Assembly: GCA_001002415.1 (NCBI GenBank)
Contig: LCMB01000001.1
Location: forward strand, 1 to 33,998
DNA: 33,998 nt
Source: Microgenomates group bacterium GW2011_GWF2_46_18
Lineage (GTDB): Bacteria; Patescibacteriota; Microgenomatia; UBA1400; UBA12108
Reading direction: 5' to 3'
The notes beneath the pieces were generated by a model. That model saw nothing but the letters and a program-made list of their open reading frames with translations. It did not search any database and had not been told where the DNA came from. Shown here piece by piece: positions 5,441-19,220 of this stretch (its first letter is position 1; each line of letters opens with the position of its first letter). The position numbers were made by a program, and so were the translations under genes.

Positions 5441-6250
5441 TTAAATTAGAAGTTTATAAACTTCTATCGCGTTTTTACTAAAAATTCTTTCTCTTTCGTC
5501 TTCATCTATTTTTAAAGATTTTACCAAATCAATTTGTTTCTTGATATCACACATGGGCCAATCAGTACCAAAAATAACTTTGTCTGGCCTGTTCTGAATG
5601 GTTTTTTCAAGTACATTTATCATTTTCTCAATGCCGCCACTTTTCTCTAGAACTTCAGGGTCTGCAGTCCCAGCCAATTCAAAATAAATGTTGGGTGAGT
5701 TCTTGGTGATTTCATAGCAATATTCAATCTTGGGCCAAAAATAATGGGTAATGATTACTTTTAATTTTGGATACTTATCGGCAATCTCGACTATATATTT
5801 TGGGTCATTATAGAAAAGGGGGTTTTGAATATTTGGATCCGAAGAAATATCGCCGGTATGAAAAACTACCGGGCAACCTAATTTCTGTAAAAGTTCGTAA
5901 TATGGCAGACATCTTTGATCTGTTGGATTATAGGGATCATGGCCTGGAAATAGCTTTATGCCTTTAACAGTTCCACTTTCTAGTAATTCTCGATACTTTT
6001 GTATTTCGCTGTTTCCCCGTTGGATTATTTGAGGGCTCCCTAAAAGAAAAAATTCCTTATACCCATTGGTGAGTTCGATTGCTTTTGCAAGATCTGCTAT
6101 ATCGTCCTTATTTTCTAAATTATCAGGAATAACTATTGCGTACTCAATCCCGTTTCTGGCCATTTCTTGCAACAACAAATCTCTGCTTTCTTCGAGAGAT
6201 TGAGCATTATTTTCGTAAAGTGAAATGTGGACATGTGAATCAATAATCAT
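5441..6250 (-). CDS. Amidohydrolase family (TIM-barrel metal-dependent hydrolase)
   Basis: IDSHVHI, VKGIKLFPGH, VFHTGD, VIITHYFWPK, IFGTDWPMCD; SD CAGGAGA upstream of ATG. Confidence 0.88.
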   Translation of the reverse strand: MIIDSHVHISLYENNAQSLEESRDLLLQEMARNGIEYAIVIPDNLENKDDIADLAKAIELTNGYKEFFLLGSPQIIQRGNSEIQKYRELLESGTVKGIKLFPGHDPYNPTDQRCLPYYELLQKLGCPVVFHTGDISSDPNIQNPLFYNDPKYIVEIADKYPKLKVIITHYFWPKIEYCYEITKNSPNIYFELAGTADPEVLEKSGGIEKMINVLEKTIQNRPDKVIFGTDWPMCDIKKQIDLVKSLKIDEDERERIFSKNAIEVYKLLI

Positions 6251-6285
6251 TTGTTGCGTCTCCTGGACGATGTTGGAACTTTTTT

Positions 6286-6657
6286 TTAGTATCTACCAAG
6301 TAAATACATTACTAAAATTTTGTAGAATATGAAGGCATCGATGAAAGCTATAATATAGGGATTAACAAATTGAAAAAGCTTGTCATTGTTGCTTCCGAGA
6401 TACTTAAGTAGTTTTACGCGTGTGTTTGGTTTAGAGTTGAAAGCAATAAGCGCGCTAAGGAGTGTACAAAAAAGTAAAGTAATGACAATTAACTCTACCC
6501 AGACTGGATGTCGTCCATATCTAGTCCAACCATTAATCAACGTAGAGAAACTAAGTTGAAGTCCTAGATGTGTAGCTAGAACAAAGTCGATCGTAAGTGC
6601 GAAACAACCAATAATAAGAAATATATTGGTGATTGTATTGATGTTGGTTGGTTTCAT
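6286..6657 (-). CDS. Hypothetical membrane protein
   Basis: 123 aa with several hydrophobic helices; ATG 3 nt downstream of the tRNA-Gln discriminator base. Confidence 0.65.
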   Translation of the reverse strand: MKPTNINTITNIFLIIGCFALTIDFVLATHLGLQLSFSTLINGWTRYGRHPVWVELIVITLLFCTLLSALIAFNSKPNTRVKLLKYLGSNNDKLFQFVNPYIIAFIDAFIFYKILVMYLLGRY

Positions 6658-6659
6658 TG

Positions 6660-6730
6660 TTGCCGAGCAGGGATTCGAACCCCAATAAGCAGCTTCAGAA
6701 ACTGCTGTCCTACCATTAGACGACTCGGCA
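6660..6730 (-). tRNA. tRNA-Gln (anticodon CUG)
   Basis: Minus strand tgccgag...gcagt-ttCTGaa-gctgc...ggttcgaatcc...ctcggca-a; U1-A72 pair, 7-bp acceptor stem, CCA not encoded. Confidence 0.93.
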
Positions 6731-6741
6731 GAGATAGACGT

Positions 6742-6750
6742 ATTTTATCA
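6742..6750 (-). promoter_or_regulatory. Extended -10 promoter for the tRNA-Gln operon
   Basis: Minus-strand TGATAAAAT; predicted start about 5 nt before the tRNA 5' end. Confidence 0.5.
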
Positions 6751-6759
6751 CTAGCACCA

Positions 6760-7098
6760 TTATTCTTTGGGTTTACGCTTGCGGGCTTCGATTTTTTTGA
6801 GGGAACCGAGGATCCGTTCGTGGAGATTGATATCTTTGATCCGGGCAATTCTTAGAATAGTGACTACCAAATCCCCGAGTTCTTGTTCGTAGGATTCATC
6901 CCGTTGGGCGGCTAGATTGAGGGGTTTGCGGCCGTGCTCGGCCAAGTAGGCTCGGGCAATTTCGCCGACTTCTTCAACTAAGGAAAGAATGAGGATTGAG
7001 CCATACTCCTGGGAATAGCGTTTACCCCGATCGATCCGGGAGAGGTAGTTAAAGTACTCGGCAAAGGGGGATTTGTAATGAGTGCGTTTGGGGGTCAT
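6760..7098 (-). CDS. MazG-like nucleotide pyrophosphohydrolase domain protein
   Basis: SLVEEVGEIARAYLAEHG (EExxE) and YEQELGDLVVTILRIA (ExxD). Confidence 0.85.
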   Translation of the reverse strand: MTPKRTHYKSPFAEYFNYLSRIDRGKRYSQEYGSILILSLVEEVGEIARAYLAEHGRKPLNLAAQRDESYEQELGDLVVTILRIARIKDINLHERILGSLKKIEARKRKPKE

Positions 7099-15845: not shown

Positions 15846-17219
15846 ATGAAGTTTAAATTGGACGCGGGAGTCACCAAAATCGTCGAGACCCTAGAGAAAG
15901 CGGGTTATGAAGCCTGGATTGTCGGAGGAGCAGTACGAGATTTACTGCTAGAAATTCCGGCTTACGACTGGGATGTGACTACTAATGCAACGCCCGAACA
16001 GATTCAACCTTTGTTTACGGAATGTTTTTATGACAACGAGTATGGGACGGTAAAAGTGGCCGGCAAGCATGTGCGGAAACAGTTTGGACTGGATGAAGGA
16101 ATAATTAATGAAGACGTCTTGTATGACATTACGACTTACCGCACAGAGTTTGGGTATAGTGACAAACGCCGACCAGACAAAGTAGTGTGGGGTAAAACTG
16201 TTGAAGAAGATCTGTTACGACGGGATTTTACGATTAATGCGATGGCGATGAAGACAAACGGAGAAATGGTGGATCCGTACGGAGGAAAGAAAGATTTAGA
16301 ACAAAAATTGATTCGAGCGGTGGGAGACCCAACAGAGCGCTTTACCGAAGATGCCCTACGAATCCTGCGAGCGATTAGGATTGCTAGCCAACTAGGGTTT
16401 GCGATCGAAGAAAAAACTCTCGCTGCTTTACAGGCAAAAGTGCCTAACCTCAAAGAGATTTCGTGGGAGCGGATCGGCGCGGAAATGATGAAACTGCTTG
16501 CTACCCAGCATGCAGCCGACGGAGTTATCATGATGGCGGGTACCGGAATTTTAGAGATTGTGATCCCGGAATTACTGCTTACTAAGGATGTAAAACAGGC
16601 AGGACACCACATTTACGATGTGTATACCCACTCGATCGAGGCACTGCGCGCTTGCACATCACCAGACCCGGTCGTTCGCTTGGCAACATTACTACATGAT
16701 ATCGATAAGCCAACGGTAGCCAAAGCGGAAGGACCCAGAGGAGTGACTTTCCATAGTCACGAGGTCAAAGGAGCCAGAACAGCGAAAAAAGTTGCCGAGA
16801 GATTAAAATTGTCCAAGCATGATCAGGACCGCGTGTTTACCTTGGTCCGCTGGCACATGTTTACCTATGACCCCAAGATGACGGATGCGGCGATCCGCCG
16901 GTTCATCCGCCGAGTGGGAGTAGAGAATATTCACGACATTATTGCTCTAAGGATCGGAGACCGGGTGGGGAGCGGGAGCAAGACAACCAGCTGGAGGCTG
17001 ACGGAGATGCAGAAGCGGATCGGGGAGCAACTGTATGAGCCGTTATCGCTCAAGGATATGAAAATTAATGGGACCGAGGTGATGAAATTACTCGGGATAA
17101 AGCCAAGTCAAAAAGTAGGAGAGATCCTTGACACTTTGTTTGAGGAAATTATCGAGGATAGTAGTAAAAATACGAAAGAGTATTTAGAGAAGCGGGTAAA
17201 AGAGCTGGGGTCAAAGTAG
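15846..17219 (+). CDS. cca: CCA tRNA nucleotidyltransferase / poly(A) polymerase family with HD domain
   Basis: AWIVGGAVRDLLLEIPAYDWDVTT, RDFTINAMAM, DPTERFTEDALRILRAIR, LLHDIDKP; ATG 15846 6 nt after TATAAT. Confidence 0.93.
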   Translation: MKFKLDAGVTKIVETLEKAGYEAWIVGGAVRDLLLEIPAYDWDVTTNATPEQIQPLFTECFYDNEYGTVKVAGKHVRKQFGLDEGIINEDVLYDITTYRTEFGYSDKRRPDKVVWGKTVEEDLLRRDFTINAMAMKTNGEMVDPYGGKKDLEQKLIRAVGDPTERFTEDALRILRAIRIASQLGFAIEEKTLAALQAKVPNLKEISWERIGAEMMKLLATQHAADGVIMMAGTGILEIVIPELLLTKDVKQAGHHIYDVYTHSIEALRACTSPDPVVRLATLLHDIDKPTVAKAEGPRGVTFHSHEVKGARTAKKVAERLKLSKHDQDRVFTLVRWHMFTYDPKMTDAAIRRFIRRVGVENIHDIIALRIGDRVGSGSKTTSWRLTEMQKRIGEQLYEPLSLKDMKINGTEVMKLLGIKPSQKVGEILDTLFEEIIEDSSKNTKEYLEKRVKELGSK

Positions 17220-18086: not shown

Positions 18087-18097
18087 ACGCATACCTT

Positions 18098-18361
18098 CGG
18101 GTTGGAGGGTGATCGGGCGACCCACGCTGCTCTCGAGCGGCGGGGTTGTCAGGAAAGTCCAGACAGCAGAGTGTAGGGTGGTTAGCGTAAGCTAGCAGTT
18201 CCGCTAACGCGGAAGTGAAACGGGCAATCCTCCCCGCTGCAACCGACGAATTGGATGACGGGTAACACTCCCCTGTCTCGCCGCAAGGCGGACGAGTCCT
18301 AAAGTTTGCGGGCATAGAGAAATGATTACCGAGAAACAGAATCTGGCTTACTACCGACCCG
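18098..18361 (+). ncRNA. rnpB: RNase P RNA (compact)
   Basis: caggaaagtccagac (CR-I), agggtg, gtgaaacgggcaatcc, acagaatctggcttac (CR-V); P1 cgggttgg/ccgacccg at the ends. Confidence 0.92.
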
Positions 18362-19220
18362 GAGGTTTTTTGAGTTTATCCCACAAAATCAGGATTGGCG
18401 CGGCGGTGAAGGTAGAGCTGTAGGTACCGGAAACAGTCCCAACCAGAAGAGCAAAAATAAACCATTTGGTGGTCTCTCCGCCAAGCAAGTACATAGCTAG
18501 GAGCATAAATATGATAGTCAAACTGTTATTGAGACTTCGGCCCATGGTTTCGACCACTGCACGGTTAACTAGATCAGGAAATTCGAGGTATCCGTGTTTC
18601 TTTTTGAGTTCGCGGATCCTATCATAGACCACAATGGTATCGTGAACCGAAAAAGACAGGATGGTTAACAGGGCGGTGACAAAGAGAGTGTCAACTTTGA
18701 CCTGATAGTAATGACCCAAGAGGGAAAAGACCCCGAGCAAAACAAGCGAGTCGTGGAACATGGCAAGAATGGCGGAAGCCCCAAATTTGAAATTTTTGAA
18801 ACGATAAGCGACATAGGTCAGGATGAAGAGAGCGGCGAGCGCAATCCCATAAATAGTTTTTTTGATTAATTCGGCGCCGAGACTAGGACCGACGGTGGCA
18901 AAAGACAATTCCTGAACTTCTAGGGGTTTGAACTGCTGATAAACCCCTTCGGCCAAAGGAGGGGTCGCCAGAGTCCAGGTGTTACCTGACTGAGCAATAC
19001 TTTCGAGCGAAATATTGAGTTCCTTGGCACGCTCTTCCAAGATGACCTGAGATAGATTATCGCCTTGCCAGACAAAGGTAGTGCCGCCGGTAAAATCGAT
19101 GGAGGGAGACAGGCCGTAGCGAATCAGGGAATAGGATCCGGGAATAATAACTATAAGGGAGAGCAGAAAATACGCCCAGTAATATTTCATGGGCTGGAGA
19201 ATGACTAATTTATCGTTCAT
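18351..19220 (-). CDS. secF: Protein translocase subunit SecF
   Basis: SIDFTGGTTFVW and SFSVHDTIVVYDRIRE motifs. Confidence 0.95.
   Translation of the reverse strand: MNDKLVILQPMKYYWAYFLLSLIVIIPGSYSLIRYGLSPSIDFTGGTTFVWQGDNLSQVILEERAKELNISLESIAQSGNTWTLATPPLAEGVYQQFKPLEVQELSFATVGPSLGAELIKKTIYGIALAALFILTYVAYRFKNFKFGASAILAMFHDSLVLLGVFSLLGHYYQVKVDTLFVTALLTILSFSVHDTIVVYDRIRELKKKHGYLEFPDLVNRAVVETMGRSLNNSLTIIFMLLAMYLLGGETTKWFIFALLVGTVSGTYSSTFTAAPILILWDKLKKPPGR

Follow-up and report, generated by a model that had tools for sequence, protein, structure and literature searches.

RESULTS

A tRNA-Gln gene lies two nucleotides from an ORF

The window, by which we mean the whole stretch of 33,998 nucleotides analysed here, belongs to an ultra-small, uncultured bacterium of the Microgenomates (Patescibacteria), with an assembly of 674 kb that is about 89% complete. 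On its minus strand is a gene for tRNA-Gln with anticodon CUG (6660..6730), called by both ARAGORN and Rfam (RF00005, 58 bits), with the acceptor stem TGCCGAG/CTCGGCA and with A 6660 as the discriminator. Behind it, and separated from it only by C 6659 and A 6658, is the ATG (6657-6655) of a 123-codon ORF (6286..6657, minus strand), the earliest start codon in that frame. The order of tRNA-Gln, CA and ATG in a preliminary description of this DNA is thus correct, as is its statement that CCA is not encoded. The sequence that it placed about 5 nt upstream of the tRNA is also present, as an extended -10-like box (TGATAAAAT, 6742..6750, minus strand) that we assign to tRNA-Gln, but the spacing is 11 nt. 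In the six family genomes described below, 122 of 190 tRNAs have a -10-like hexamer 5-25 nt upstream, mostly at 8-12 nt.

With a gap of 2 nt, the coding sequence starts next to the tRNA as in tRNA punctuation, and a Shine-Dalgarno (SD) sequence between tRNA-Gln and ATG 6657 is impossible; the preliminary description was right that a separate SD would not fit, and a promoter of the ORF's own would not fit either. No terminator or promoter was seen in the sequence between tRNA-Gln and the ORF. The neighbouring genes on the minus strand are a MazG-like gene upstream of the tRNA (6760..7098, Pfam PF03819) and, behind the ORF, an amidohydrolase-family gene (5441..6250, PF04909), probably a second cistron, which has an SD-like AGGAG motif at 6260..6264.

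The 123-codon ORF is an orphan in a segment of low GC content

The 123-codon ORF encodes a protein with three membrane-spanning segments predicted from hydropathy (residues about 8-31, 50-76 and 98-121), and the probability of an open frame this long is ∼0.0009 by first-order resampling. The structure predicted from the single sequence is all-helical and of low confidence (pLDDT 63, pTM 0.38), too weak for a fold search. We detected no relative of the protein in any collection searched, including Pfam and the family genomes; a match to G001:C9 (26% identity, E 0.045) was treated as chance. Viral contigs, phages and PHROGs likewise held no match, and we rejected a phage or virus origin. At the start of the ORF there is an imperfect inverted repeat (6655-6590, GAAACCAACCAA ... 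TTGGTTGTTTC; fold z-score -2.4), which could be regulatory or could be the trace of an insertion.

The GC content of the ORF and of the amidohydrolase gene is 34-35% (35% for the latter) with low GC3, compared to 46-51% in the flanking genes. The segment looks foreign, and the ORF was probably acquired recently. The preliminary description had made conservation of the ORF as a protein a test of its own proposal, and by that test this ORF is not conserved, as the searches returned no relative; conservation cannot be demonstrated because the ORF is an orphan inside a low-GC, acquired-looking segment.

The same locus, near ProS, differs in two relatives: in L057 tRNA-Gln is followed by a terminator-like hairpin in place of an ORF, and in L072 by an unrelated 212-codon membrane-type ORF that starts six nt after the tRNA. 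The site behind tRNA-Gln is thus variable and probably takes in foreign genes. Attachment-site duplication was considered and rejected, as we found neither a second copy of the 3′ part of tRNA-Gln in the window nor a direct repeat flanking the low-GC segment. Two ORFs named by resemblance only as LAGLIDADG-like were observed among the other loci, one near tRNA-Gln in L072 (2239-3051) and one of 216 codons in L321, which has a CA-ATG start behind a tRNA-like end.

ORFs directly behind tRNAs recur in the family and the order

To place the locus among its relatives, we use a family sample of six Microgenomates genomes (G000-G005; 87-97% completeness) with 190 tRNAs. Among ORFs of 80 codons or more, 17 begin 1-7 nt past a tRNA discriminator, and these include genes for ThrRS, an SDR, a NUDIX protein (assigned by motif only), a cyclophilin, a VIT-family protein, a polysaccharide flippase and GIY-YIG proteins. 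Of the 30 ATGs found 0-7 nt behind tRNAs, 19 open an ORF of 60 codons or more, compared to 66 of the 217 ATGs that lie 10-100 nt away (Fisher p = 0.0005). As a triplet, ATG is at most mildly over-represented directly behind tRNAs, and near chance by a rough estimate; what is raised is the fraction of tRNA-adjacent ATGs that open genes, not the occurrence of ATG.

Pattern searches for tRNA-C-ATG and tRNA-CA-ATG in 79 genomes extend this layout across the order. The exact N73-CA-ATG arrangement precedes genes for MscL, a flippase, an alpha/beta hydrolase and a GIY-YIG protein, and N73-C-ATG precedes a peroxiredoxin gene, such that the abutting genes in the order include those for MscL, peroxiredoxin, ThrRS, SDR and flippase. 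The layout of tRNA followed by ORF thus recurs with conserved genes well beyond the window locus. At single loci, abutment is not kept over long distances. The SDR gene lies behind tRNA-Thr(GGT) at spacers of 3 and 4 nt with no SD, and at 38 nt with GGAACCGAAGG, and its N-terminus is the same; the NUDIX gene lies behind tRNA-Ser(TGA) at 4 nt with no SD and at 12 and 78 nt with an SD-like motif. We rejected conservation of the ThrRS abutment across the order, since of the loci that we read, only that of G001 has tRNA-Val and ThrRS abutting.

At distances of 1-33 nt, seven different tRNAs from different genomes are followed by a small GIY-YIG gene (L185, L202, L223, L058, L287, L315 and L334; one identified by Pfam and the rest by sequence resemblance), as if these genes landed behind tRNAs repeatedly. 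A separate observation is a conserved protein of 56-57 amino acids whose gene begins one nt after tRNA-Pro(GGG) in two genomes of the same genus (L297 in G042, L314 in G043).

These results bear on an alternative, that foreign DNA came to lie behind tRNA-Gln by chance, the ORF being either no gene at all or one that is not expressed from the tRNA, with the amidohydrolase gene and its own SD as the sole cargo. The orphan status of the ORF, the base composition of the segment, the different contents of the locus in L057 and L072 and the no more than mild over-representation of ATG at this position would all fit such an explanation. We nevertheless regard it as unlikely, given the improbable length of the ORF, its three well-formed hydrophobic segments and the continuity of the junction, in which nothing resembling a separate promoter or terminator intervenes.

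Position 74 is encoded as C in nearly all tRNA genes

A C directly follows the discriminator in 189 of the 190 tRNAs in the six genomes, but the full CCA is present in only 38, with position 75 mostly A. Indeed, C74 is found in 151 of the 152 tRNAs that have no CCA, and thus the base after the discriminator is not free to vary. Because C74 is encoded so generally, C 6659 belongs to tRNA-Gln, and its assignment in the preliminary description, with the A, to the leader of the mRNA is not supported. The lone A at 6658 separates C74 from the ATG and is a possible one-nucleotide leader. On a tentative reading of an RNase P RNA alignment, the loop position that should pair with C74 seems conserved and its neighbour variable, which would explain C74.

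The enzymes expected at the two ends of a tRNA were found in part. All six genomes have a CCA-adding enzyme (PF01743) and an RNase P RNA. In the window, the catalytic domain of the former (15912..16316, plus strand, 119.8 bits) lies within a 468-codon open frame, and a class A RNase P RNA (18097..18366, plus strand) matches over its full length at 65.7 bits, compared to the Rfam gathering score of 100 bits; scores below gathering are also obtained in 4 of 5 family relatives. These two genes lie near each other. In contrast, searches of the six genomes (87-97% complete) with TIGR02651 and PF12706 revealed no RNase Z gene. TIGR02651 matches all 14 controls but gives nothing above cut-off in the six genomes, only weak matches of 18-29 bits: five are in frames of about 550 amino acids, of which that of the window genome reads as RNase J, and a short one in G004 belongs to a small metallo-hydrolase of a different kind. 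With PF12706, the window genome yields in addition only a ComEC-like frame, and G004 and G005 a few further short, unassigned matches. Overall, the weak matches are for the most part RNase J-like or ComEC-like.

Bacteria that lack RNase Z can use exonucleases to trim tRNA 3′ ends. If the 3′ end were matured in this way, back to C74, then each transcript from the locus would have one of two fates, either as a tRNA or, unprocessed, as an mRNA with a folded tRNA in its 5′ region and the AUG directly behind the fold. The failure to find RNase Z in six genomes is consistent with such a scheme, which we nonetheless consider rather improbable. If exonucleases alone make the 3′ ends, a maturing tRNA would destroy the mRNA, and to lose the mRNA at each tRNA maturation seems costly for genes that are conserved and sometimes essential (ThrRS in G001). 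Moreover, Propionibacterium acnes, which has no obvious RNase Z, makes endonucleolytic cuts inside the CCA triplet, between the Cs (PMC3848588). Cleavage by RNase Z behind the discriminator to yield a CA-AUG mRNA, as originally suggested, suits a tRNA-Gln gene with no CCA and a compatible layout, but is very improbable in view of the failure to find RNase Z genes in the six genomes and the nearly universal C74.

A leaderless initiation signature is common in these genomes

If the ORF is translated from a start at or near the 5′ end of its mRNA, leaderless initiation should be plausible in the host. A TA-like signal about 10 bp upstream of the start is taken as a mark of bacterial leaderless genes (PMC3160421). 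In the six genomes, a TATAAT-like hexamer lies 5-9 nt before the ATG of 87 of 366 long ORFs (24%), but before only 19 of 1759 internal in-frame ATGs (1%); the signature was noted over the window, L050-L056 and L168-L244. An SD is found in 66 of the same 366 ORFs, and the SD and the -10-like box almost never occur together. By this sequence signature, leaderless initiation looks native to the lineage and apparently widely used.

The ORFs behind tRNAs divide by spacer length. At spacers of 1-7 nt, none of 17 has an SD and none has a -10 box of its own; at spacers of at least 10 nt, an SD-like motif is seen in 9 of 34 and a leaderless-type -10 box in 8 of 34. The short spacers with no SD, together with orthologues that switch mode, therefore indicate that a gene can lose its spacer and apparently stay translated.

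DISCUSSION

We propose that the tRNA-Gln promoter would drive a single transcript that spans tRNA-Gln and the 123-codon ORF and probably extends through the amidohydrolase gene. On its 5′ side the tRNA would be trimmed by RNase P; on its 3′ side it would be freed by an endonuclease other than RNase Z, with the cut at or beside the encoded C74, and the CCA-adding enzyme would then complete the 3′ end. The remainder would be an mRNA with a leader of 1-2 nt (A-AUG or CA-AUG), to be translated by the leaderless pathway. We give this scheme an even chance of being correct. The layout, its recurrence, C74, the failure to find RNase Z and the leaderless promoter signature rest on sequence, and from these we infer co-transcription, the cut and translation. 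The preliminary interpretation is partly supported: the layout and the lack of room for an SD stand, leaderless initiation looks native and the layout recurs, but RNase Z is probably the wrong enzyme, and the C as part of the leader and conservation of the ORF are not supported. A link between expression of the ORF and tRNA-Gln maturation, as that description proposed, would be a putative consequence.

Similar arrangements exist in other systems. In animal mitochondria, tRNAs punctuate transcripts (Ojala 1981; reviewed in PMC4394434), and the window locus resembles these in that a coding sequence directly follows a tRNA whose excision would form the 5′ end of a nearly leaderless mRNA. It differs in that the bacterial genome has many promoters and only some of its tRNAs abut genes, in that searches of the six genomes gave no RNase Z and in that C74 is encoded. 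The window locus belongs to a layout that recurs across the order, and on our reading, which we hold at even odds, this layout would be a bacterial counterpart of mitochondrial tRNA punctuation.

Bacterial leaderless mRNAs are established in Actinobacteria and Deinococcus-Thermus (PMC3160421, PMC3898074, PMC3848588). Here too, the AUG would be at or within a few nucleotides of the putative 5′ end with no SD, and other such genes of the window genome are marked by a TA-like box some 10 nt upstream of the ATG. However, the 5′ end of those mRNAs is made by transcription initiation, and here it would be made by release of the tRNA. P. acnes is similar in having no obvious RNase Z, and a cut after C74 could be repaired by the CCA enzyme, but the cuts in P. 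acnes were mapped by RNA-seq and ours are deduced from sequence; also, P. acnes encodes CCA in about half of its tRNA genes (PMC3848588). In Thermococcus kodakarensis, a tRNA-Lys lies within the 159-nt 5′ UTR of TK0306, such that a tRNA and a coding gene share one transcript, as we propose here, but TK0306 keeps a long leader and has no near-leaderless junction (PMC4247193). In the open-access literature we found no report of bacterial tRNA processing that creates leaderless mRNAs, although this does not prove priority, no report of tRNA genes that encode C74 only, and no mention of absent RNase Z in Patescibacteria.

A broader and more tentative view, which we think somewhat less probable than the scheme for the window locus, is that Microgenomates use a bacterial form of tRNA punctuation: tRNA precursors would be cut at the near-invariant C74 by some nuclease that is not RNase Z, an ATG directly behind would yield a leaderless mRNA, and tRNA 3′ ends would be ready-made expression sites where mobile genes, such as GIY-YIG genes, can land. 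If true, gene finders should be used with caution, as a start codon immediately after a tRNA may be genuine, and the question arises as to which enzyme forms tRNA 3′ ends where RNase Z is missing. For the organisms themselves, which form part of a vast group of uncultured bacteria, tRNA maturation and mRNA 5′-end formation would be a single event, and their gene expression would parallel that of mitochondria.
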